Source of the DNA: Helicobacteraceae bacterium
GTDB lineage: Bacteria; Campylobacterota; Campylobacteria; Campylobacterales; Sulfurimonadaceae
DNA length: 35,526 nucleotides
Direction: 5' to 3'
NCBI GenBank assembly: GCA_027052175.1
Contig: JALUFE010000075.1
Location: 1 to 35,526 of the forward strand
Position 1 is the stretch's first letter, and every line of letters starts with the position of its first letter. Positions 14,125-34,957 of this stretch are shown piece after piece. The notes under the pieces are model-generated. The model did no database searches and was not told the DNA's origin. It worked only from the letters and a program-made list of their open reading frames with translations. Made by a program: the position numbers and the translations under genes.

Positions 14125-14493
14125 ATGGATACGATACAAAAAGCTAAAACAGTGCTTGAAAAGTTGGAGAATGTACAGTTTGCCTACCTCTTTGGTTCCT
14201 ATGCAAAAGGAGCACAAACGGAAAGTAGTGATGTGGATGTTGCACTTTTTCTCAAAAACGATAGCTTCGATGAAAAATTGAGTATCCACCATACGCTGCA
14301 GAGAGCTTTGCAAAAAGAGGTCGATCTCGTAGTGCTCAATCGCGTGCGTAACTATGATCTTCTAAGTGATATACTGGAAGAAGGTGTTTTGTTAAAAGAG
14401 TGTGAGGATGATTCGCGGGTGATGTTCGAGCTGCAAAAGGAGCATGAGATCAAGGATTATGCCGTTTTTAAGAAGATGAATTATGTTGCATAG
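14125..14493 (+). CDS. MntA-like minimal nucleotidyltransferase (antitoxin)
   Basis: 122 aa; intact GSX10DXD: 'GSYAKGAQTESSDVDVALF'; preceded by TATAAT. Confidence 0.88.
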   Translation: MDTIQKAKTVLEKLENVQFAYLFGSYAKGAQTESSDVDVALFLKNDSFDEKLSIHHTLQRALQKEVDLVVLNRVRNYDLLSDILEEGVLLKECEDDSRVMFELQKEHEIKDYAVFKKMNYVA

Positions 14494-14497
14494 AATA

Positions 14498-14763
14498 GAC
14501 TTCTTGCAAAACTCCTAAACAGTCTCAGAGGAGAGAAAGCCAAGAGATTTTGTAAAACAAATTTTCAAGCCTAGCCGTAGCTAAGTTTGGAAATTTTTTT
14601 GCGAAATGTCGCAGGCTTTCACTCCTCCCGTAGGGCGTTATAAAGAGAGCTTTACTCTGCGTTAGATAACCTTCACCGTAGCGCTCGCTACGCTAAAGAA
14701 CATCTGCCTTGATTAAAACTCTCTTGATAACGCTGAGACTACTTAGGAGTTTTGCAAGAAGTC
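14498..14763. mobile_element. MITE-like element 1 (266 bp), TA target duplication
   Basis: Including the flanking TAs: TAGACTTCTTGCAAAACTCCTAAACAGTCTCAG versus reverse complement of the right end TAGACTTCTTGCAAAACTCCTAAGTAGTCTCAG (31/33); TA at both ends (14496-14497, 14764-14765); no transposase. Confidence 0.88.
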
Positions 14764-15067
14764 TAATAGAGAACAAGATCAAATCCATCGAAGAGACGCT
14801 CGCTCTTTTGGAAAGCTTGAAGAGTGATTGTAAGCAAAAATTTCTCGATGATATGATCTATCAAGGGGCACTGCTTCACTATCTCTATCTTGTTGCCGAT
14901 CGTTCCATCGCTCTGGCTGAAATGGTGCTCAAATACAAAAACTGCAAAAGATCGAACAGCTACTATGAAAGCATCAATATGCTTGGAGAGTGTGGTATTG
15001 TTCCTGCGGAGTTCGCGTATGATTTTGCTCGTATAGCATCGTTCTGTAACTTTCTCGCCCATGATTA

Positions 15068-15338
15068 AGTAATGAGGCAAAAATAATTTCATAACCCAAC
15101 AGCAAGAAAAAGGTATAGATGCAAGGCAGATTTTTGAAAGCTTAGCCGTAGCTAAGGTGAGAAAATCTAACGCCGTCAACTATGCTTTTTTCTTGCTGCC
15201 CCTGCGGGGTGAGATGATTTTCGCTCATCTTTGCACGAAAATCGCTTTGAAGTAGAATAACTACGACTATAGCAATTTTCATACAAATCTGAACGAAACT
15301 CATCTCATTGGGTATGAAATTATTTTTGCCTCATTACT
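15068..15338. mobile_element. MITE-like element 2 (271 bp), TA target duplication
   Basis: Perfect 28-bp terminal inverted repeat TAAGTAATGAGGCAAAAATAATTTCATA (15066-15093 versus 15313-15340, including TAs); no coding potential. Confidence 0.9.
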
Positions 15339-15443
15339 TATGAGCGTATAGACTATTTGGAGATATGTGAGGGAGTGCTCTCAAAACTTGATGATATCAA
15401 AAAATACTTGGTTTATATAAAAGAGACACTCGATATCGAGTGA

Positions 15444-16076: not shown

Positions 16077-17609
16077 TTACGAAAAAAGCCCGGCGAGAAA
16101 CGCGCTTTTGTAGTCGCCGCTTTGGGTTTGGAAGTTTGCGAGATTTGGAAACGCACTCTTCATTGTGCGCTCATCCACTCCAAACCAGTCAAGAACGGGT
16201 GCAAACATCTGCTCTATGGATGTAGTCGGGATAAGACGGCCTTTGATGTTGCGGCTTGGGTAGAAGTTGGTGTTGGTGTCTTCAAGCTTATAGTTATCGA
16301 CTGATTTTCCCACTATCTCGCCTCCATTGAAGTTGGAGTCACCACACATAACGAACTGATGTCCGCCCCATCCGTGATCGGTGCCATCCCCGTTGCTTAG
16401 CAGCGTTCTACCAAAGTCGCTTGTCGTAGCCAAGAGCACTTTCTCTTGCAAGCCCATCTCCTCAAGCGCTTTGTAGAAGTCACTCACCGCAAGGCTTATA
16501 CTTCGAAGTCGCTGGGTATGATCGACCATCTGCCCGGAGTGGAAGTCAAATCCTCCCATAACCATATAAAAAACCTGTCGCTTGTAACCGAAATGCTCTT
16601 TGCCGATCTTGATAAAACGAGCGATGGATTCGAGATATTTGAAGAGTCTGGAGTCAAGCCCATGCACATCTAAACCTATGTCGGAGGTTTTTGGTACGCT
16701 AAAGAGAGCATCCCCATAGGAGTTTTTGGCACTAAAGGTGCTAAAATCGACTGCATCGTTCCACACGCTTTTGAATGTATCGGAGAACTCTTTTGCGTCG
16801 AGATTGAGGCGTTTGTAGTAGGATTCGAAGATATTGCTGTCTTTGGTCTTTGCGAACGCTTCGATGATGGGAGGTATGTCTTTGTTTTTGAACAGGTCGG
16901 GCTTTTCGCCAAAGACAAGCGGGGAAGTGTCTTTGCCTGTCACCATCATATCGAGCCCATGGTAGGAGACATTGAGCCCGATCTTGCCGTTGATGGGACT
17001 CCAGGCATCGGCAACCCTGCCAAGCCAGCCGGAGTTGATCCTTGACTGCGCGTAAGCGGTGGCGATGGCGCGCCGTTGATGATCGTGCGCAAAGAGAAAG
17101 AGCGGTAGATCGGCAGTTTTGTTCGCTATATCATCGTAAGTTGTAGGTTTTACAAGTGTTCCGACATTACTGACAACTGAAAGCACCCTTTTTTCATAGA
17201 GTGCTGCAAGTTCTGGCATCAAGCCGTGAAATCCAAGCTCACCGCCCACCTTATACATCCCCTTGCGATAGACCGACTCCAGATCGTTTCCGGCATAGGG
17301 GTTTTTGGATTTGTCACTACTTGTGTAGTAGCCGTTGGCATCTTTATTGTAGTAGGTATCTTTCGTGAGATCGGTATCGAAGACGGAGATCTTCTGTCTG
17401 ACTGCAGCATAGTCGCTGTGATGGGTGCTGTCAGTCGGTATAAAGGTGTTAAACGAGTCATTTCCCCCATAAAACTGCAAGATGACGATCGCCTTGTAGT
17501 CGCTGAAGTTGGTCGAAGAGGCAAAAAGCCCCTCTGCCGCTGCGGCACTAAGCAGCGGAGCCGAAGCCATACCTTTAAGTGTGTTTTTTAAAAAATCTCT
17601 TCGCTGCAT
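16077..17609 (-). CDS. DUF1501 family Tat-exported protein (copy 1)
   Basis: 'QRRDFLKNTLKG' Tat motif; 'IVILQFYGGNDSFNTFIPTD'; 'DFGRTLLSNGDGTDHGWGGHQFVMCG'. Confidence 0.9.
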   Translation of the reverse strand: MQRRDFLKNTLKGMASAPLLSAAAAEGLFASSTNFSDYKAIVILQFYGGNDSFNTFIPTDSTHHSDYAAVRQKISVFDTDLTKDTYYNKDANGYYTSSDKSKNPYAGNDLESVYRKGMYKVGGELGFHGLMPELAALYEKRVLSVVSNVGTLVKPTTYDDIANKTADLPLFLFAHDHQRRAIATAYAQSRINSGWLGRVADAWSPINGKIGLNVSYHGLDMMVTGKDTSPLVFGEKPDLFKNKDIPPIIEAFAKTKDSNIFESYYKRLNLDAKEFSDTFKSVWNDAVDFSTFSAKNSYGDALFSVPKTSDIGLDVHGLDSRLFKYLESIARFIKIGKEHFGYKRQVFYMVMGGFDFHSGQMVDHTQRLRSISLAVSDFYKALEEMGLQEKVLLATTSDFGRTLLSNGDGTDHGWGGHQFVMCGDSNFNGGEIVGKSVDNYKLEDTNTNFYPSRNIKGRLIPTTSIEQMFAPVLDWFGVDERTMKSAFPNLANFQTQSGDYKSAFLAGLFS

Positions 17610-17618
17610 CCTCTCTCC

Positions 17619-19589
17619 TTATCTGATAACCATATAGTACGGCGAAGTCGCGATCGCCACGATCGCCGCAACAACGATCCGTTTTGCTCTGTGTGGCAGC
17701 TTGTTGTCATAGCCTCCGACATTTGCCAAATATTTCACTAAAGCATCCCTGTAATCCTTTGGCAAACGATCCCCCAGCATCTTGTGATCGAGATATGCCA
17801 CAAGCACTTGGGCACCCTTTTGCTGTTTCGCACTCTCTTTTAAGCCGGCAAAGTCGCCGTTCGTATCGCCATCGACCGCCTTTTCGAAAGTCGCATAGAC
17901 ATCGCTAAGATCGACACACATCAGCTGCGGTGCCGCCTGACCTTTTTTACTTAGTCCTTGCGTCATGAACTCTTCAAGTGTCGCGAACTTTTTGTCTATA
18001 TGGAGTATCGCGTATTTGTCAAATGATCCCAGTATCATCGTGATAAAGTTGTTGTAGCGGATCAGATTGGATGGTGTTTGGATCTGGAGTTCTGGCGCTA
18101 TAAGATGGTTGGCTGTAAAGTTCGCATCTTTTGGAGCGTAGTCGGCATCATAGAAATTAAAGACATCCGGCGCACTCATCGCCGCCTGGGCGAAGATGCC
18201 CTTGGTAGCCGCCCAATACAGCGGCATATCGCTTGAAACCTTGTCCCCGTAAAATATCCACGAATGCGTCGGCATCACACCAAATGTCGAGTAGAGATGC
18301 GCCAAAGAGGTGAGCAGCTCATCGACACGCCCTCTGTTTTCGTTCAGACCGTTGCGAACCTCTTTGTCAAGCAGGATCGCTCGCACAACCGCTCCAAGAT
18401 CACCCTTCTTGCCATGACCGTTGTCGTTGAAGACGCTTGCGACTCTTTTGACATACTCCGGTGAAGGGTTGGAGGTGGTTAAGCGCTGGATGAGCTTCTT
18501 GGCGATGAAAGGAGCGATGTTTTTGTTCCGTGTGAGGATATCGAGCTCCGACTCGATATCCTGCTCTCCTGTTTGTCCAGATGGGATATCCTGACCCAAA
18601 AGACGCTTCGCACCCGTGTCGTGATACTGAGAGTAGAATTCTATAGGCAGCAGATAGCACCCGCCCCCTTTGGCGATGCGATCAAACCGACCATTACCCG
18701 CAACACTCCATCCGCTAAAGATCCGCGCTCCCTCCATCACATCATCTTGCGTATAGGTAGGGATATCTCTGCCGTTTTTCGTCTCTATCGTTCCATCCAG
18801 ACGCAGCTCGCTTGGACCGATGGAGAACATCTGCATGATCTCTCTGGCATAGTTTTCATCGGGACTCTCCCCTTTGCTTGGGTCGTACTTCGCACTTCCT
18901 ATGTAGGTCATATAGTATGCCATAGCAGGGGAGTAGGTGATGTCTCTTAGCAGCTTCTTGTAGGTACTAAAGGCATCGCGCTGGAGGATATCGTAGTAGT
19001 AAGCAAGCCCCTCACCCCGCCACTCAAGCAGGTTGCCCGCAGGTGAAACCGCAGAGACGACGATGATCTGACTCAGCGCATACGCAACCTTCTGGCGCAG
19101 CTGATCCGTTCCCCTGAAGGCTCTTTGCCACCAAAGAGAGTTTGATACAAGTCTGTACTTCTTGGGTGTGGCGATCTTGTCGCAGCTACTTCCATCTGTA
19201 GGATGCGCCATCTGTGCGGTGTAGTTCCCATCGAGTTTGCTCAAAGTCTCATAGAGCAGATCGACCATCGACTTCTTTTCATCAAAAGGCATACCAAGCT
19301 GCTTATCGATCCATGCCGCATAGCCATGCTGCATCACATACGTTATATCGCTCTCCTTTTGTGCGATGGCGGCTTGCTTCAAGAAGGTGATCGCCTGTGC
19401 TCTTGTTGCACTTTTGTTGGTGTTGAGCCAGCTATTTTCAGGAGTGGTGGTCTCTCCATCACCTCCACTATTTTTTTGGTTGTTTCCACCGCCGCTGCTT
19501 GAGGAGCCACCCCCTCCTCCACAGTTTCCAAGCAGCATAGACAAAAGCAGTGCTGTAGCGATCTTGAATGATATAGAGACTATTTTCAT
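17619..19589 (-). CDS. DUF1800 family exported protein (copy 1)
   Basis: Hydrophobic N-terminus then NCGGGGGSSSS; 'ENYAREIMQMFSIGPSEL', 'VARIFSGW'-like segment, 'APFIAKKLIQRLTTSNPSPEYVKRVASVF'. Confidence 0.9.
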   Translation of the reverse strand: MKIVSISFKIATALLLSMLLGNCGGGGGSSSSGGGNNQKNSGGDGETTTPENSWLNTNKSATRAQAITFLKQAAIAQKESDITYVMQHGYAAWIDKQLGMPFDEKKSMVDLLYETLSKLDGNYTAQMAHPTDGSSCDKIATPKKYRLVSNSLWWQRAFRGTDQLRQKVAYALSQIIVVSAVSPAGNLLEWRGEGLAYYYDILQRDAFSTYKKLLRDITYSPAMAYYMTYIGSAKYDPSKGESPDENYAREIMQMFSIGPSELRLDGTIETKNGRDIPTYTQDDVMEGARIFSGWSVAGNGRFDRIAKGGGCYLLPIEFYSQYHDTGAKRLLGQDIPSGQTGEQDIESELDILTRNKNIAPFIAKKLIQRLTTSNPSPEYVKRVASVFNDNGHGKKGDLGAVVRAILLDKEVRNGLNENRGRVDELLTSLAHLYSTFGVMPTHSWIFYGDKVSSDMPLYWAATKGIFAQAAMSAPDVFNFYDADYAPKDANFTANHLIAPELQIQTPSNLIRYNNFITMILGSFDKYAILHIDKKFATLEEFMTQGLSKKGQAAPQLMCVDLSDVYATFEKAVDGDTNGDFAGLKESAKQQKGAQVLVAYLDHKMLGDRLPKDYRDALVKYLANVGGYDNKLPHRAKRIVVAAIVAIATSPYYMVIR

Positions 19590-19602
19590 GCTATACCTTT
19601 TA

Positions 19603-21147
19603 TCATGCCATAAAGTTCAGATCGGTTCTTGTAGCATCAAAGTTTTGTCGCTCAGGCAATGCGGTGTCGATCTCGCTATCACTGGCACCGAACCACTCCA
19701 AAATCTTGCCGTAATACTCTGAGTAAGAAGTTGTAGGGATCAATCTTCCTCGATGAGAGATATCATCATCTCCAGCTACTGTAAGATCTGGGAAGACTCC
19801 ATAGTTGCCTGGCTTGACCGCACCAAGCACGAACTGCGCACCACCCCATGCGTGGTCGCTTCCATCACCGTTGCTGGCAGTGGAGCGTGAGAAGTCGGAG
19901 AGTGAGACAACCGCGACCTCATCGAGCCACCCTTTAGTTTGCATAGCACGCATAAAGGCATCGATGCCAAGACTGAGCCCCCGCAAGCGTACACTATGGT
20001 CTCGCTTGAGATGGCTGTGCTGATCAAATCCGGGCACGGTAATGCTCAGCACAATGCGTTTGAAGCCTTTATCCTTCGCGATAGTGATCAGCTTCGCCAC
20101 TGTTTTGAACGACTCAATCACTCGGTTGTTGACCGGCGTATCCATCGCCATTTGCGCTTTGGTGACTTCATGGTGCTGACTTGTAGGATCATAAATTGTA
20201 TTGCCATAGGCATCGGTGATACCTTGAAGATCTGTATCACTGTTAACGCTGTTCCAGTCGATGAGTGTTTGAACTGTCTCGGCGTAACTGCTGCTTCTTA
20301 ATGATCTTATAAGATTTCTAAAAGGATCCTGGTTCCCTGCCGTGCGTGTTTCGTTGACCCACTGCTCATAGGCACTATCGAGATCACTGCCCAATTGTGT
20401 CGGTCCCATATAGCTGTAGTTCATCGGAGAGGTGGTAGCACCGAACATCGCATGTTCGATACCGTATCCCGAGAGGTTGATGTTCATTTTATAGATCGGA
20501 TCACTGTTGACATTGCCCCACTGATCCGCCAATCTTCCCATCCATCCTGTGGGAACCGTCATACTCGAGGAGACGCCCAGATGTGCCAGGAGATTTTGGA
20601 TATTGTGAGCGAAGAGACTTGGTGGTCGCTTGGTTTTGTCACCCAACAGTTGAGATTTGGTATAGGGTCCTCCGATATTTCCCACATTTTGGATCACAGC
20701 GCCCCTGCCTTGATCCAGCCAGTAGGCAAGTTCGGGCATCATGGCGTTGATGGCTATTTTGCTGTTGAAGTTTTGTTTATCTAAAAGATAAAACCCTTTC
20801 ATGTAATGCTTTGCTCCATTCGTTCCGCCGGCATTATAGGGGTTGTCCGATGCGGAACCGATCTGCAACTCTCCACCGTTTACAAGATTGCGAAGAGCAC
20901 CCATCAAATCCGTATCAGGTATCGCGACACCACTTCCTCTTTCTATTCTATAGTTGTTATACCCTGTTTTACTATCGCTTCCTGTCGGTATAAAAGTGTT
21001 CAGCGCATCGTTTCCTCCCTGCGTATCGACAAGCACGATCGCTTTGAAACCGGTTAGAGTATTGCCGGGATCGGCCGATAAGATCTGAGGGAAAGCCCCA
21101 ACGCCCCCTAAGATAGCTGAATATTTCAAAAAGTCTCTTCGTTTCAT
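19603..21147 (-). CDS. DUF1501 family Tat-exported protein (copy 2)
   Basis: 'KRRDFLKYSAILGG'; 'VLVDTQGGNDALNTFIPTG'; 'DFSRSTASNGDGSDHAWGGAQFVLG'. Confidence 0.9.
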   Translation of the reverse strand: MKRRDFLKYSAILGGVGAFPQILSADPGNTLTGFKAIVLVDTQGGNDALNTFIPTGSDSKTGYNNYRIERGSGVAIPDTDLMGALRNLVNGGELQIGSASDNPYNAGGTNGAKHYMKGFYLLDKQNFNSKIAINAMMPELAYWLDQGRGAVIQNVGNIGGPYTKSQLLGDKTKRPPSLFAHNIQNLLAHLGVSSSMTVPTGWMGRLADQWGNVNSDPIYKMNINLSGYGIEHAMFGATTSPMNYSYMGPTQLGSDLDSAYEQWVNETRTAGNQDPFRNLIRSLRSSSYAETVQTLIDWNSVNSDTDLQGITDAYGNTIYDPTSQHHEVTKAQMAMDTPVNNRVIESFKTVAKLITIAKDKGFKRIVLSITVPGFDQHSHLKRDHSVRLRGLSLGIDAFMRAMQTKGWLDEVAVVSLSDFSRSTASNGDGSDHAWGGAQFVLGAVKPGNYGVFPDLTVAGDDDISHRGRLIPTTSYSEYYGKILEWFGASDSEIDTALPERQNFDATRTDLNFMA

Positions 21148-21157
21148 CGTCGTCTCC

Positions 21158-23200
21158 TTAGTTTGTCATATACTCTTCGCTCATGGTGATCTCGGTGATC
21201 AGTGGAGCGATGATTCTTGCAACGAGATACTTTTGTATCGTTTCGTTGTCCCAGCTGGGAGCATATCTATTTGTAAATACATCTCTATAAGCATCTACCA
21301 GCTTTTGAACCGTTTCACTATCGAGCTGCTTGCCCAAGAGACGCTGCGAGGCATCCTGTATAACATATCGCACCGCCGCTTCCCGTCCGGCTTGATCCTT
21401 TGGTCCATCTTTGAACTCTTTTCCAGTTTTTTTGAACTGCTTCAAATAGTCCGCAAAATCAAAGAGCATATAGGTGTGGAACTGTCCGCTTGAGCGTCCC
21501 AGGGTATAGCTGCCATTGGAGTCTTTGTTGCTGGCATAGAGATAGTGATACTCGTTGCGTTTGAATGTATCGAGCGTATTGTTCTCTATCCCCACCATAT
21601 ATTTTGTCGTATAGAGTGAGGCTTTGGGCGCTTTCCAACCTCGTAGTTTGAACTCTGCGTCATTAGGTTGATAACCGTCGCTAAAAAAGCCAAATACCGT
21701 TGGTTGGTAAGTTGGCCACTGATTGAGCGTAGCGTATTTTGAACGGACAAAATAGTGGTTGTCAATGGAATGTTTTGTTCCATCGTCATCGGTCACTTCG
21801 CGCTTAGGCCACGGCTTGACACCCATCGCGCGCAGCATCTGGGTGTACATAAGGTAAGGCTCTTTGATCTCCACAGCCTGGTCGTTTTTGATATTTTCCC
21901 AAATGTTTTCATCAAGCAGTATCGCTTTGACGGTTTTTCCTATGTCTCCGCCGCTGTTTTTAAATACCGTAGCGACCCTTTCGATATAGTCTGTTTTTGG
22001 ATTGGATTTTGTCAAACGGATGATCAGTTTTTTCGCTATAAACGGCGCTGCATTTGGATGGTTCATGAAGATATTGACCGTATCGTTGATATCTTGGTAG
22101 CAGTTTTGCCCTGCCGGTACCGTTTGACCTAGAAATGTTTTCGATCCAGTATCATGATAGCTGCTATAGCAGTCCATCGGATGCAGCGAGTCACTCTGCC
22201 ATAGTGTAGGGTTATGGTTGTTGGGCTGCGTATGGTGCGGATAGATAAGTCCGGTAAAGACTCGTGAGACCTCCATCACATCTTGTTGTCCATACGAAGC
22301 AATGCGTTTGCCGTTTTGACGCTTGGGTGATCCACCCATATCGAGATCGAAAAGTCCTATGGAGAAGAGCTGCATGATCTCTCGTCCATAGTTTTCATCG
22401 GGATAGATGGTTTGGTTTGTATCCTTATCTACATACTCTTTGCGATTGCTTGCATAGGTCAGGTAAGTTGCCATTGCCGGAGAGAGACTGACATCATAGA
22501 GGATATCACCATACTTTCCAAAGGCATTTTTCAGCAGGATATCATAGTAGTAAGAAAGTGCTTCGCCTTTGTTTCTAAAGAAGAAGTCGGTCGATTCACT
22601 CGCAACGATGATTTCAGAGAGTTCAAAAGCGACGCGCTGGCGCAGTTGTGCATCATCTTCGAGATGACCTTTGAGAACAGCACTTGAGTGATAGTCAAGT
22701 TCATCTGCGCCATGAATCAGCGTTCGGTTAAAAACCGTATCGTTATTTGCTAAGAACTGGTTAATCAAGTTGTCGATATCGGCTTCACTTTGGGGGAGAG
22801 GTAATCCAGCCTTATCGCAGTAGGCATAGGGGCGCATCTTGAGTGCATCGTGCATCATATTGTAAACGATACTCTCTTTTTTGAAGTTCCACGGTTTTGC
22901 AAGCTGCTCATCGACCCATGTGACGACCCCTTTTTGTTTAAGTTCTTGGACATCTTTTGGAGTAGCACCCATCGTCGCCATATCGAGGAACTTCACAGCC
23001 ATGCGATCGGTCAACTGGCTTCCTGTTGGGATATAACTGTAAGGGGTTCCGCCGCCACCAGAACCTCCAGAACCTCCAGAACCACCACTAGATCCGCCGC
23101 CTGTTCCACCATCGGAGCCGCCGCCCCCGCCTCCACAGGCACTTAACGCTATGAGTGTCATCACCATCATTATCAGTTTCAGTATGTTTCTTGTTTTCAT
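21158..23200 (-). CDS. DUF1800 family lipoprotein (copy 2)
   Basis: Lipobox LSAC then poly-Gly; 'DENYGREIMQLFSIGLFDLD', 'APFIAKKLIIRLTKSNPKTDYIERVATVF'. Confidence 0.9.
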   Translation of the reverse strand: MKTRNILKLIMMVMTLIALSACGGGGGGSDGGTGGGSSGGSGGSGGSGGGGTPYSYIPTGSQLTDRMAVKFLDMATMGATPKDVQELKQKGVVTWVDEQLAKPWNFKKESIVYNMMHDALKMRPYAYCDKAGLPLPQSEADIDNLINQFLANNDTVFNRTLIHGADELDYHSSAVLKGHLEDDAQLRQRVAFELSEIIVASESTDFFFRNKGEALSYYYDILLKNAFGKYGDILYDVSLSPAMATYLTYASNRKEYVDKDTNQTIYPDENYGREIMQLFSIGLFDLDMGGSPKRQNGKRIASYGQQDVMEVSRVFTGLIYPHHTQPNNHNPTLWQSDSLHPMDCYSSYHDTGSKTFLGQTVPAGQNCYQDINDTVNIFMNHPNAAPFIAKKLIIRLTKSNPKTDYIERVATVFKNSGGDIGKTVKAILLDENIWENIKNDQAVEIKEPYLMYTQMLRAMGVKPWPKREVTDDDGTKHSIDNHYFVRSKYATLNQWPTYQPTVFGFFSDGYQPNDAEFKLRGWKAPKASLYTTKYMVGIENNTLDTFKRNEYHYLYASNKDSNGSYTLGRSSGQFHTYMLFDFADYLKQFKKTGKEFKDGPKDQAGREAAVRYVIQDASQRLLGKQLDSETVQKLVDAYRDVFTNRYAPSWDNETIQKYLVARIIAPLITEITMSEEYMTN

Positions 23201-23212
23201 TACTCTCTCCTT

Positions 23213-23929
23213 TTATGCTAAACAGCGTGTTTTTTGATTCCACAAGGCTGCAAGCAGTCCATCTCCGCTTCCCGATGGAAACTCCTCCGGCGTCTTGCAA
23301 TAGTCCGCTCCAACACTACAGCATCCATTTGCTACGCCATTTTGGATCAACGCATAGTGATACGCCCAGTAGTGACTCTGACTACCGGCTACGAGATACT
23401 TGAATGTCTTTTCAAGATATTTGTTTCCATCTACTTGCCCTAAAAAGCCTGTTAAGTCTCGGATATCCTGTACTTCGACCATACAACCAATCTTTAGAGC
23501 TTGTATATCACCTTGCTTGGCATAAGGGATCAGTGTATCTTTATATCTGGTTTCAAAGTCGGATATGGCATAATCCCCCGCTCCCATCGCTCTTAGTTCT
23601 GTCGGTTTGTAATGGGCATCTTTGTTGGAGTAGTCGTTGACGTCGATATTGTAAAGAGCTACAAGCTCCTCCACCGCCGTCATATGCTGTACCTCCGACC
23701 AGTGCCCTATGTTGTAAAAGAGGCGAAGATGCGGATAGAGCCCATACACCGCTTCAAACGCATCATGCGCCATCTTCTCTTCGCTCCACATGTGTGCCAG
23801 TGCATGGCGCTGTGAATCGGTAAGTGTGAGATCTTTGTCTATATGATCGATGCCGTAAGCTATGGGGTACTCTGCAGGGGTCTTACAGTAGCCGTTTCCC
23901 GCTTTGCAACACCCTTCCGACCACACCAA
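23213..23929 (-). CDS. DUF2202 ferritin-like domain 2 (3' fragment of a frameshifted gene)
   Basis: 'LTDSQRHALAHMWSEEKMAHDAFEAVY...WSEVQHMTAVEELV...MVEVQDIRDL'; opens at TTG inside the upstream ORF; C-terminal 'CCSVGADYCKTPEEFP'. Confidence 0.8.
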   Translation of the reverse strand: MVWSEGCCKAGNGYCKTPAEYPIAYGIDHIDKDLTLTDSQRHALAHMWSEEKMAHDAFEAVYGLYPHLRLFYNIGHWSEVQHMTAVEELVALYNIDVNDYSNKDAHYKPTELRAMGAGDYAISDFETRYKDTLIPYAKQGDIQALKIGCMVEVQDIRDLTGFLGQVDGNKYLEKTFKYLVAGSQSHYWAYHYALIQNGVANGCCSVGADYCKTPEEFPSGSGDGLLAALWNQKTRCLA

Positions 23930-24503
23930 GATCGATCAGCTGTTGGTTAAGCGCCCAGTAGTGCCCCATACTGCCATCTATAAGATAGGTGATGTTTTCT
24001 TGCACCTTTTTACGGTTGGCAAACTCACCAAGATCTCTTTGCATCTCGTCGATACCATCTACACTCACTTTCGCAAGTGTCAAAAACGCGTCTTCCAACG
24101 AAGAGAGTCCCTCCTTTTTGAGCTGATCGAACTTGTTGGTCATAGCCGTAGATGGAAACTTGCCAAGCTCCAAGGCTTGAAGCTGTTTGGTCGTATAAAG
24201 CAGCTGCGCATCACTTGTGTAGCTGAGATCCACATTGTAGAGCTTGACCACTTCGTCAAGCACGGCTCTTCTGTTTGTGGCACTCCATTTGCCCATCGTA
24301 TTTAGCAGGTCGTTGCCAAACTGCTTGGCAAACGTCAGCGCCAAAGATGCCCGTAGCCTTTCATCGTGCCAGATGTCGGCTATGAGCTTTTGCTGTTTGG
24401 CGCTTAGGAGTTTGTACTCCTCACCAAAGAGCGACTCTCCGCCTATGAGCATACTCCCCGATGCCGCCGCGGCCAATTTCAAAAAATCTCTTCTCTCTTT
24501 CAT
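23883..24503 (-). CDS. Tat signal plus DUF2202-like domain 1 (5' fragment of a frameshifted gene)
   Basis: 'KERRDFLKLAAAASGSM' Tat motif; 'LSAKQQKLIADIWHDERLRAS...VLDEVVKLYNVDLSY...GSMGHYWALNQQLIDLGV', then frame lost. Confidence 0.8.
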   Translation of the reverse strand: MKERRDFLKLAAAASGSMLIGGESLFGEEYKLLSAKQQKLIADIWHDERLRASLALTFAKQFGNDLLNTMGKWSATNRRAVLDEVVKLYNVDLSYTSDAQLLYTTKQLQALELGKFPSTAMTNKFDQLKKEGLSSLEDAFLTLAKVSVDGIDEMQRDLGEFANRKKVQENITYLIDGSMGHYWALNQQLIDLGVVGRVLQSGKRLL

Positions 24504-24512
24504 CGCTCGCTC

Positions 24513-26204
24513 CTACTTCATCTCTTTGTGGCATTTGTTACATCCGATGGTCTCACCCGCTTTGAGTTGGGCGTACCGATCCATCACGCCAAGCTTGAAT
24601 GTTCGGTTGGCTGATGCTTTGGAGAGGAAAGTCCCTTTTAGATCCTGACCGTGGCACGCCTTACAACTGCTTGAAGAGTGTTTCAGTACAATGGTGCCAT
24701 GTCTGTTGACCCACTCCTGATTGTGCGGATGCAGTCCGTGCGGTCCTTTGTCGAATGTTGTCGCGACCACCTCATCGGCATGACACGCACCACACTCTCG
24801 TATGGTTCCTTTATAGCCCTGATGCGCCATACTCTGTCTGTTTTCATCCTTGTTGGTTGAGGGGTATATGGCATGCTGCGAACCGTGACACGCGCTACAC
24901 GCCACGCCGCCATGAGAAAGGCTATGTTTGTAGAGCTTCGTTTTGCCGCCATACTTTTCAGTTCCAAAACGCATATCAAGAGCATTGCGAAGTGTGCCCC
25001 TCTTCATATCGGTAACGGCTGCCGTGTATCTTTTGCCATTTTGATGGCACGCCTGGCAGTTTGGCTCGTCTATCCAGCTTTTTCTGCCTTTTTTGGCAAC
25101 CGCTTCCATAGTGCCATGGCAGCTTTGGCACTGGATCTTGGCGTTGCCGTTGGCATCGACGGCATGCCCCATCGCACCTCTAAGACACTGCGTACTCTCA
25201 CCTGGATGGCAGGCGTAGCAGGAGTTTCGATTTGTACTCTCGCCAAGTGTCTGGGTCGCTCCCGGGATGCGTCTTGAAGCATGGGCGTGGTGCATCGCTT
25301 CGGTAAGTGGCTCTATGCCGCTGATCCCTGTTCCAGGCAGTGCGTTGGAGCTGTGGCACGCAGCGCAAAGGATCGGCGTACCCGCTTTAGCCGTCGCTGC
25401 AAGTCCCGCGTTGTCATAGTTGTAGCCTTTGGCTTTAAGTGAGGCGTTATTGTCTTTGACGGCATTTGGATGGAGCTTGTCATGTTTTATGAGCACATCC
25501 ATGCGTACATTGGAGCTGTCTGTGTTATGACACTTCGCACAGCTCATCTCACTGCTGACGGCAAGTGTCGTTACAGTTTGCGCCAGCACCTTTCCGTTTT
25601 TGTTCTTGGCAACCACTTTGACAAGCGGATACTCATCGGCATTGCCCCCATCATCTATAGGGATCGTCGGGATCCCTTCGGCTACATAGAGGTTGTAAGA
25701 GGAGTTGTAGTCCATTGGCTGCGGCACACTGCTTTGTGTTTTTTTACCCTTTAAGCCTACATCGTTTTGGAGTGTTACACCAGGAAAGAGTTTACCTGCA
25801 TACTGCCAAAAGTTACTTTTGTCGCTGCTGGAAGTATTGATGCTGCCATCACTCTTGTCAAGCGCCTCGTAAGTGATGCTCACCCCCTCGTTCACGATAC
25901 GCGGCGATCTGCCTTTTACTATAAGCTGGGCTTTGAGCGTGTTGTAAGGTGGAAGAAGCGAAAATACCCCGTAATCCTTATCCATACAGTGCATACCAAG
26001 CTCACCCCAGGCAAAAAGTGCGAACTTGGTTTTGTTAAAGTCGAAGCTGTAAGCATCTTTATAAGAGTTTATTGTTGATGGGGGCGGGATATTTTCATCC
26101 CCGCCGCTTTTCCCTCCTCCACATCCGGCACTCATAAGCGTCATCGCGAATGAGAGCGAAAAGGAAAGGAAAAATGGTATGAGCTTTTTATGATAAAGCG
26201 TCAT
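24513..26204 (-). CDS. Nine-CXXCH multiheme cytochrome c lipoprotein
   Basis: CAKCH, CAACH, CYACH, CQSCH, CQACH, CSACH, CGACH, CKACH, CNKCH; lipobox 'MSAGCGGGKSGG'; likely start MTLYHKKLIPFF (ORF track opens at 26294). Confidence 0.92.
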   Translation of the reverse strand: MTLYHKKLIPFFLSFSLSFAMTLMSAGCGGGKSGGDENIPPPSTINSYKDAYSFDFNKTKFALFAWGELGMHCMDKDYGVFSLLPPYNTLKAQLIVKGRSPRIVNEGVSITYEALDKSDGSINTSSSDKSNFWQYAGKLFPGVTLQNDVGLKGKKTQSSVPQPMDYNSSYNLYVAEGIPTIPIDDGGNADEYPLVKVVAKNKNGKVLAQTVTTLAVSSEMSCAKCHNTDSSNVRMDVLIKHDKLHPNAVKDNNASLKAKGYNYDNAGLAATAKAGTPILCAACHSSNALPGTGISGIEPLTEAMHHAHASRRIPGATQTLGESTNRNSCYACHPGESTQCLRGAMGHAVDANGNAKIQCQSCHGTMEAVAKKGRKSWIDEPNCQACHQNGKRYTAAVTDMKRGTLRNALDMRFGTEKYGGKTKLYKHSLSHGGVACSACHGSQHAIYPSTNKDENRQSMAHQGYKGTIRECGACHADEVVATTFDKGPHGLHPHNQEWVNRHGTIVLKHSSSSCKACHGQDLKGTFLSKASANRTFKLGVMDRYAQLKAGETIGCNKCHKEMK

Positions 26205-26217
26205 ATAGCATCCTTTT

Positions 26218-27279
26218 TTATTGTCTTGGTTCGCCGAAATCTTGAGTCCAGTATTTGCCGTATTTGTCATCGGCCAGCATAAGGGACATCCCAAGCTCAG
26301 TGAAATGCGGATCCATCAGGTTTTTGCAGTGTCCGTCGCTATCGAGCCATCCTTGTATTACATCATCCAAAGTCCGATATCCTTTGGCGATGTTTTCACC
26401 TATGTAGTAGAAGTTATAGTTGAAATACTCTATCCGGTCACGCATATAACTCCCGCGGCCAAGATGCTGTGTTTTTGCAACGATGTCGCTGTCGGTGTTT
26501 GAGCCCACATGGTGCCACGCATTGCCGTGGACCATATCATAGTTGTAGGTGTATGCTGCTTTGTAGAGTTTGTCATTCCATGTAAGAGCAGGTACGGCAT
26601 CTTGCATACCATACTCTCCGCAATCTTGCTGGTGTGCTCTTGCATTGTTGACGGCATCGAGAAACGCTTTTTTCTGTTTTTCGGATATCGGAGGAATGAC
26701 AAATTTTTCATCTTTGTATCCAAGAGTGTCGTTGAGATTTTTTTGTGCAGTCTGTTTGTCCACCGTTACGGTGATATTCTCGTTGTTTTGCAGTTCGTTG
26801 ATAAAGTCGTTGGAAGGATCGTCAAGTGAAGTCGCATTGTCAAATCGGTGATCTTTGAGTTTTTCGACATCGATATAGGCGCTGCTTGCATGGTTGTCGC
26901 AGTTTTGAAGCAAAATGGCGATATTTGTCGCTTTTGTGCTTGGTGCTGCAGGCGAGCCTCCGCCAAGCGTATAAGGTGTTATAAGTTTTTTCGCTTGGAC
27001 ACGCCCGAGGTAGAGATCACCGAGATAGAAGGCTATATATTCATTTTTTTTATACTGGAACTGTCCCTTTTCATCGGTGTAGCCGTTTTGGGTTTTTGTT
27101 TTATATCTGAGCCCTTTGACGGGAGCGTCGACGAAAGTCCCTGTGAGGAGAGTTTCAGGTTCATACTTGATGAAGTTGGATCCATCATCGCTTCCGCTAT
27201 CGCCTCCACAGCCAACAAGCAAGAGTGTGATTGCAAATAAAAGAAAGAATCTCGGTGAGATCTTGAGAGAGTTTTTCAC
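26218..27279 (-). CDS. CAP/SCP (PR-1-like) domain lipoprotein
   Basis: Lipobox 'LLLVGCGGDSG'; CAP motifs 'LTWNDKLYKAAYTYNYDM', 'ENIAKGYRTLDDVIQGWLDSDGHCKNLMDPHFTELGM'. GTG start at 27279 with AAAGGAG 7 nt upstream. Confidence 0.88.
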   Translation of the reverse strand: MKNSLKISPRFFLLFAITLLLVGCGGDSGSDDGSNFIKYEPETLLTGTFVDAPVKGLRYKTKTQNGYTDEKGQFQYKKNEYIAFYLGDLYLGRVQAKKLITPYTLGGGSPAAPSTKATNIAILLQNCDNHASSAYIDVEKLKDHRFDNATSLDDPSNDFINELQNNENITVTVDKQTAQKNLNDTLGYKDEKFVIPPISEKQKKAFLDAVNNARAHQQDCGEYGMQDAVPALTWNDKLYKAAYTYNYDMVHGNAWHHVGSNTDSDIVAKTQHLGRGSYMRDRIEYFNYNFYYIGENIAKGYRTLDDVIQGWLDSDGHCKNLMDPHFTELGMSLMLADDKYGKYWTQDFGEPRQ

Positions 27280-27344
27280 TACGCTGCTCCTTTGCGTATA
27301 GATTTGTTCGGTCAAGGAGAAGCAAGAAGAAGGGAGTTGCAAAA

Positions 27345-27474
27345 GAGGCAACCGGCTATCTGTCCCTACTCGATTTGTACGTATGCTTTGTGATTTTTTT
27401 TTACACAGCATATCAAGTAGAGACAGACCCTTGGCTTTCCGTCCCCGCTTCGCAGCGGGTTTGGCTTTTTCTCC
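27345..27474 (-). promoter_or_regulatory. Cyclic di-GMP-I (GEMM) riboswitch aptamer
   Basis: Minus-strand RNA: AAAAAGCCAAACCCGCUGCGAAGCGGGGACGGAAAGCCAAGGGUCU ... AGAUAGCCGGUUGCC. Contains the CAAACC, GNRA-capped P1b stem, GACGnAAAGCC, GGGUCU and AGCCGGUUGCC elements of GEMM-I. Confidence 0.88.
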
Positions 27475-27562
27475 TTTTTTATCCTGCGGATTTTAAAGAT
27501 ATATTCTCTCGTTCATTCGGTTTCTAAAATTATAGAATAAAAAACTAAATTCGCCAAAAAAA

Positions 27563-33859: not shown

Positions 33860-34957
33860 TTATAATATCTTTGTCAACCATGTACTCAGCCAGTTTTCTT
33901 TCTTTTTTTGTTGAGACCGTTTTTGGGACTGTATCTTTTTGAGAGTGGTGCCATAGAGGGCAAGAAACTCGTTTATATGTTTGAAAAGGATATCGATAAG
34001 ATGCGGATCGAAATGCTTGCCGCTTTGCTCTTTGAAAAACTCAAGCATTTCATTCATATCCCATTCCTCTTTGTAACTGCGTTTGGAGGAGAGAGCGTCA
34101 AAAACATCCGCAATGGCGACGATACGGGCATATATATGGATCTCTTCCCCTTTGAGACCCTGCGGATAACCGCTACCGTCCCATTTTTCGTGATGCTCTT
34201 TTGAGACAATCTTCGCCACTTCAAAAAGTGGCAGTTTCACACCTTCGAGCATGGCCGCTCCCAGAGTAGGATGTTTTTTGATCTCTTCGAATTCTTTTTT
34301 TGTAAGTTTCTCTTTTTTATGGAGGATGTAGTCTTTGATCCCTATTTTGCCGATATCGTGAAGATAGGATGCATATTTGAGTGTTTCGGCCTCTTTATCC
34401 TCCATACCGTAATGTTTGGCGAGCAGATAGGTGATCTCCGCCACTCTGCGTACATGTTGGTGTGTTTCGACGGAGTGTCCTTCCGCTATACCGCCAAGCA
34501 TTCGCATAAGATGGATTTGTGCTTCTAACATCTCCTGTGTTCGTTTTTTGACTTCATCTTCGAGCCCTTTTTCGTAATGGCGAATCTTCAAAGCTGCTTT
34601 GACGCGTGCCAGCAGCTCCTCTTTGAAATAGGGTTTACGAATATAGTCGATTCCTCCTACGTTGAAAGCTTTTGTCAAAATGTTTTCCTCACTGCTTGCA
34701 GTGAGGAAAATTACAGGGATATTGGATGTTTCAGGATCGATTTTAAGATAGCGACACACCTCGATTCCACTGATGTCCGGCATCATGATATCAAGCAGGA
34801 TCAGTCCGAAATCTTGTGTACGGACTATTTTAAGTGCTTCGTATCCATTTGTTGCACTTGTCACTTCATAGCCTTCCTGTTTGAGGATGTTCGTGAGTAT
34901 CTTGATGTTTTCTATGACATCATCGACGATCAGAATATGTGCTTTATTTGTCGACAA
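33860..34957 (-). CDS. Response regulator with HD-GYP domain (putative c-di-GMP phosphodiesterase)
   Basis: Receiver 'ILIVDDVIENIKILTNIL...LILLDIMMPDISG...VIFLTA...IDYIRKP'; HD-GYP 'YLHDIGKIGI...HPTLGA...HHEKWDGSGYPQGLKGEEI...ARIVAIADVFDAL'. Confidence 0.93.
   Translation of the reverse strand: MSTNKAHILIVDDVIENIKILTNILKQEGYEVTSATNGYEALKIVRTQDFGLILLDIMMPDISGIEVCRYLKIDPETSNIPVIFLTASSEENILTKAFNVGGIDYIRKPYFKEELLARVKAALKIRHYEKGLEDEVKKRTQEMLEAQIHLMRMLGGIAEGHSVETHQHVRRVAEITYLLAKHYGMEDKEAETLKYASYLHDIGKIGIKDYILHKKEKLTKKEFEEIKKHPTLGAAMLEGVKLPLFEVAKIVSKEHHEKWDGSGYPQGLKGEEIHIYARIVAIADVFDALSSKRSYKEEWDMNEMLEFFKEQSGKHFDPHLIDILFKHINEFLALYGTTLKKIQSQKRSQQKKKENWLSTWLTKIL

Follow-up and report, generated by a model that had tools for sequence, protein, structure and literature searches.

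The closest described relatives of the element reported here are Vc2 of Vibrio cholerae, a translational OFF switch (PMC9262584), and the cGAMP switches of the GEMM-Ib group found in Geobacter (PMC6456294). The G20 position of the aptamer has been described as a selectivity factor (PMC9262584), and in the cGAMP aptamer the corresponding position is A14, which is followed by C15 (PMC6274999). DUF1800-DUF1501 gene pairs, for their part, have been found adjoining bacterial chitin synthases, where a Tat motif was also noted (PMC5122149).

The locus described here lies in a 35,526-nucleotide stretch of DNA (the window) from a Helicobacteraceae bacterium (GCA_027052175.1, contig JALUFE010000075.1), whose genome is a draft bin that is 86% complete with 5% estimated contamination. 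A c-di-GMP-I (GEMM-I) riboswitch is found there in the 5' leader of seven genes for exported proteins. The explanation that we regard as reasonably probable is that this riboswitch controls the whole operon as an OFF switch, and that the locus exemplifies a lineage-wide rule joining GEMM-I to DUF1800/DUF1501. The features of the leader are as follows, all on the minus strand.

27529..27557 (-): promoter-like TTGGCG-17-TATAAT between uvrB and the aptamer (10/12 consensus matches)
27465..27477 (-): purine leader, comprising the P1 5' strand AAAGGAG and J1/2 AAAAAG and ending at the G20-equivalent 27465 (sequence)
27344..27475 (-): aptamer with extended second hairpin (RF01051, 53.2 bits; order-specific model, 68.6 bits)
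27341..27347 (-): P1 3' strand CTCTTTT (7 bp with the purine leader)
27313..27322 (-): pyrimidine tract CTTCTCCTTG, which can pair with the purine leader or with the Shine-Dalgarno sequence (sequence complementarity)
27287..27293 (-): Shine-Dalgarno sequence AAAGGAG of the CAP gene (sequence; 7 nt upstream of the GTG at 27279)

The initial annotation had placed a GEMM-I aptamer on the minus strand at the head of this gene set and had proposed an Infernal search with RF01051. That search (cmscan, Rfam) bore the proposal out, with a match at 27475-27344(-) that covers the full length of the model, scores 53.2 bits, above the gathering score of 35 (E 7.8e-8), and has a second hairpin with a long extension. 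It is the sole Rfam match within the window and the only RF01051 match found in the 1.78-Mb draft genome. A covariance model specific to the order, built from 63 aptamers of related genomes with the window excluded, also matched it at 68.6 bits. Since promoter-like sites in this region are not above chance, the main argument for the one at 27529..27557 is its position.

The P2 loop of the aptamer is GCGA, which is of the GNRA type. At the selectivity position (G20-equivalent) the window has a G at 27465, preceding a CC that pairs with GG, and G is invariant at this position in the related aptamers (63/63). Because the selectivity base is G, the ligand is predicted from sequence to be c-di-GMP rather than cGAMP; cGAMP as ligand, and with it membership of GEMM-Ib, was rejected, as an A is required there. 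The draft genome contains 28 GGDEF matches, and c-di-GMP signalling is thus present. A response regulator with an HD-GYP domain (HHEKWDGSGYP), which is likely a c-di-GMP phosphodiesterase, is encoded at 33860-34957(-), 6.4 kb from the riboswitch.

Behind the aptamer, the following genes are found in the same direction.

26218..27279 (-): CAP-domain lipoprotein, 353 aa, GTG start, lipobox LVGC (PF00188, E 4.4e-16)
24513..26204 (-): nonaheme c-type cytochrome lipoprotein, 563 aa (PF22113, E 1.7e-12; nine CxxCH)
23213..24503 (-): two-domain DUF2202 Tat protein, in two frames (PF09968, E 7e-13 in the 3' part)
21158..23200 (-): DUF1800 lipoprotein, 680 aa (PF08811, E 5.2e-75)
19603..21147 (-): DUF1501 Tat protein, 514 aa (PF07394, E 1.1e-21)
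17619..19589 (-): DUF1800 lipoprotein, 656 aa (PF08811, E 1.8e-70)
16077..17609 (-): DUF1501 Tat protein, 510 aa (PF07394, E 3e-21)

The matches to CAP, the MtrC/MtrF II-IV domain, DUF2202, both DUF1800 and both DUF1501 proteins are all above the Pfam cut-offs; the two DUF1800 proteins score 253.6 and 238.7 bits and the two DUF1501 proteins, which have RRDFLK Tat N-termini, 77.9 and 76.5 bits, over Pfam gathering. The start of the CAP gene is corrected to 27279, as the start of its open reading frame lies inside the aptamer. In the DUF2202 gene, one extra base near 23918 splits the frame, as seen when the DNA is aligned with the copy in another genome of the same genus (G003), where a single 429-aa open reading frame with a Tat signal is found; this base may be an error of the assembly or a genuine lesion. 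The earlier description of seven exported, co-directional units with gaps of 9-13 bp is correct once the split DUF2202 is counted as one gene, the gaps then being 13, 9, 12, 10, 13, and 9 bp, and all seven products do carry a lipobox or Tat N-terminus as it had stated. Such short spacing suggests that the seven genes are co-transcribed. The downstream neighbour, a VTT-domain gene, follows after a 72-bp gap.

Elsewhere in the window lie two MITE-like elements that differ from each other, one of 275 bp (15066-15340) and one of 270 bp (14496-14765). Their terminal inverted repeats are 31 and 33 bp long, respectively, and each has about ten near-full-length copies in the rest of the draft genome (90-98% identity). 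At 14125-15068 a HepT-like gene (14709-15068), which covers profile positions 1-93 of 120, stands beside a nucleotidyltransferase gene. This HepT-MNT toxin-antitoxin pair is apparently cut off by one of the MITE-like elements, and the other lies between both genes.

Comparison with G003 revealed seven GEMM-I sites in that genome. One precedes a cytochrome-DUF2202-DUF1800-DUF1501-DUF1800-DUF1501 series whose cytochrome is 83% identical to that of the window, a separate one stands before an additional DUF1800-DUF1501 pair, and yet another precedes a CAP lipoprotein. Of the other four, one each lies before a collagen-like lipoprotein and before a protein that combines bacterial Ig, F5/8 and phosphoesterase domains, and the remaining two lie before exported proteins that are Pfam-blank. 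CAP orthologues are riboswitch-led in three other genomes, namely G003 and two more. Besides the window genome and G003, one more genome retains the tail of a DUF2202 gene immediately before DUF1800-DUF1501. Two units that stand apart in G003, that of CAP and that of the cytochrome, have probably been joined in the window genome or split in G003.

Further survey of the order showed that this linkage extends beyond the genus. RF01051 was found in 43 of 200 relatives (78 sites) and DUF1501 in 41 of 200. Counting a DUF1501 gene as linked when it lies on the same strand within 12 kb downstream of a GEMM-I, 12 of the 26 DUF1501 genes of riboswitch genomes were linked, compared with 0.18 expected under random placement; these 12 genes stand behind ten GEMM-I sites in eight genomes. 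A 400-genome sample of the order added at least 15 linked genes from at least 11 further genomes, for a total of at least 27 GEMM-I-linked DUF1501 genes in at least 19 genomes of four families (f1, f4, f6, f9). A partner gene was present directly before DUF1501 in all eight further loci inspected, being a canonical DUF1800 in two and a member of a Pfam-blank family in six. The latter family has no significant Pfam match; profile comparison with DUF1800 (probability 95.9, E 5.4e-9, 388 columns) indicates that it is related, probably as a remote branch. The same lipoprotein-like family always precedes DUF1501 behind GEMM-I at L182, L183, L184, L185, L186, L187, L045, L052, L071, L051, L054, and L068. 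Moreover, a lipobox-like N-terminus, scored with a crude pattern, was seen in 19 of 63 first genes behind GEMM-I vs 41 of 479 open reading frames. Tandem GEMM-I copies were also observed before surface-protein genes (L040, L033), with four within 2.8 kb in G026 and two within 0.3 kb in G195.

Many DUF1501 genes of the order are without GEMM-I. None was found at 20 other DUF1800/DUF1501 loci of the relatives at Rfam thresholds, some of these loci being cut by contig ends, and none before 48 DUF1800/DUF1501 loci outside the order with the order-specific model, which divergent aptamers could escape. The initial annotation had asked whether GEMM-I precedes the same gene set in relatives and had read the locus as an envelope module under c-di-GMP, a reading that this survey supports: GEMM-I heads exported genes, the gene set is conserved behind it in the genus, and its link to DUF1800/DUF1501 holds across the order. 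While the riboswitch class itself is well known, its repeated coupling to DUF1800/DUF1501 pairs appears new; a literature search found no work that connects either DUF1800 or DUF1501 to a riboswitch or to c-di-GMP, although most subscription papers lay outside that search and such absence is not proof of novelty.

How the riboswitch might act was examined in the leader. No U-tract terminator was found behind the aptamer of the window, and a terminator-type platform was rejected for want of this tract. In ten genus-type leaders (the window, seven of G003, and two of CAP orthologues), which are partly related to one another, the stretch between aptamer and start contains a segment complementary to the purine leader (summed energy -99.4 vs -69.2 +/- 6.3 in shuffles, 0/300) and one complementary to the Shine-Dalgarno sequence (-86.2 vs -72.0 +/- 5.8, 4/300). 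The two targets overlap in 8 of the 10 leaders, with 4.4 expected and 6/300 shuffles as high. When all 58 leaders from the order are taken together, a weak signal is left (mean z -0.28 and -0.23), and it is clear in genus-type leaders only. When the bound aptamer was imposed on the folding, accessibility of the Shine-Dalgarno sequence fell in four of five testable leaders, in the window from 0.96 to 0.67. The expression platform thus looks translational, and this modelling makes OFF more likely than ON. In the ligand-free RNA, the purine leader, made up of the P1 5' strand and J1/2, would pair with the pyrimidine tract and leave the Shine-Dalgarno sequence free. As the leader-tract pairing uses bases of the ligand pocket, binding of c-di-GMP should free the tract: the aptamer would take up P1 and J1/2, and the released tract would mask the Shine-Dalgarno sequence, resulting in less translation of the first gene. 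The later genes are assumed to follow the first by translational coupling or polarity.

The opposite direction has its own basis in the leader and is, in our judgement, rather unlikely. In an ON switch, P1 formed upon ligand binding would keep its 3' strand CUCUUUU off the Shine-Dalgarno sequence, or would block a stem GGUUGC/GCAACU, so that expression would rise with c-di-GMP. This agrees with the complementarity of CUCUUUUGC to GCAAAGGAG, with a terminator-like stem at 27353-27335 that overlaps P1, and with the ON behavior of the Geobacter GEMM-Ib switches (PMC6456294; PMC9262584). That stem, however, lacks a U tract, pairing of the conserved second tract with both leader and Shine-Dalgarno sequence exceeds what shuffles give, and the bound aptamer lowered Shine-Dalgarno accessibility in most testable leaders. 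The reach of control is a separate matter, since the genes 10 kb downstream carry their own Shine-Dalgarno sequences and would not necessarily be governed by a switch that acts on translation of the first gene. It is unlikely, though conceivable, that the riboswitch governs the CAP lipoprotein alone, with the cytochrome gene onward under its own promoter and the neighbourhood being a rearrangement joint. The window aptamer is indeed nearer to CAP-type aptamers (91, 89, and 87%) than to the cytochrome-type aptamer of G003 (78%), and in that genome CAP forms a riboswitch unit of its own. Against this, the gap between the CAP and cytochrome genes is just 13 bp, and shuffled sequences contain promoter-like sites as often as this region does. 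Moreover, because the cytochrome operon of G003 has its own GEMM-I, riboswitch control of both units is the conserved state.

The initial annotation had also seen a possible extracellular-electron-transfer module here, and that part of its reading is not supported. It would have the nonaheme lipoprotein move electrons across the envelope with the other genes in support, and the MtrC/MtrF domain, a weak sequence match to a solved MtrC, and the GEMM-I family switches that precede Geobacter cytochrome genes (PMC6456294) all speak for it. The MtrB/PioB porin (PF11854) of an MtrCAB-type conduit, however, had no match in the window genome (86% complete) or in G003, most riboswitch-DUF1501 operons inspected are without a multihaem gene, and no GEMM-I was found near cytochrome homologues elsewhere. 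We consider electron transfer as the purpose of the operon quite improbable. Within the same genome, a homologue of the cytochrome (L176, 71-2155; 49% identical) is followed by a protein whose N-terminus has both Tat and lipobox features, with no riboswitch nearby.

The proteins shared by the linked operons give further clues. To our knowledge, DUF1800 and DUF1501 proteins are exported and widespread and have no assigned function. Sequence searches found no solved relative of either. The DUF1800 model is confident (pLDDT 84, pTM 0.87), and a fold search against the PDB gave no match for it (best E 0.44). The DUF1501 model (pLDDT 84) matches sulfatases and alkaline phosphatases, with a Foldseek E of 1.4e-4 and probability 1.00 to a sulfatase beside low full-length TM-scores of 0.2-0.4, which points to the fold of that superfamily. 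Asp and His residues are invariant in 48 DUF1501 sequences, and no Ser, Thr, or Cys is, i.e., there is no invariant nucleophile. DUF1501 may be a sulfatase/alkaline-phosphatase-like protein and DUF1800 its lipoprotein partner. The N-terminal region of the CAP protein shows a weak likeness to SslE/AcfD lipoproteins, far below cut-off. The products of the operon may build or modify the envelope. More tentatively, DUF1800 and the Tat-exported DUF1501 could form a dedicated, GEMM-I-gated c-di-GMP output cassette of Campylobacterales, in which a sulfatase/phosphatase-like secreted protein, together with a surface lipoprotein whose fold is unsolved, remodels the envelope as cells change from a free to an attached state or back. 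That DUF1800 and DUF1501 are repeatedly coupled to a single second-messenger riboswitch, in four or more families of the order, tells when the two are called for, which is a concrete and testable clue to their function, and the comparison exposes a Pfam-blank branch of DUF1800.

Set against known systems, the window operon shares the adjacent pair and the Tat-exported DUF1501 with the DUF1800-DUF1501 operons beside bacterial chitin synthases, for which no riboswitch was described (PMC5122149); unlike those, it has no chitin synthase or other glycosyltransferase gene. With the Geobacter GEMM-Ib switches it has in common the RNA fold and a multihaem cytochrome target (PMC6456294), and it differs from them in having G rather than A at the selectivity position, in a platform that is probably translational instead of a terminator, and in that no electron-conduit genes were found. 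Its targets, namely CAP, multihaem cytochrome, DUF2202, and DUF1800/DUF1501, are unreported for GEMM-I in the literature examined. Compared with RF01051 riboswitches including Vc2, the second hairpin is extended, whereas the aptamer core, the GNRA loop of P2 and the G at G20 are the same. Masking of the Shine-Dalgarno sequence with P1 as the switching helix, as in Vc2 (PMC9262584), is proposed to operate alike here.
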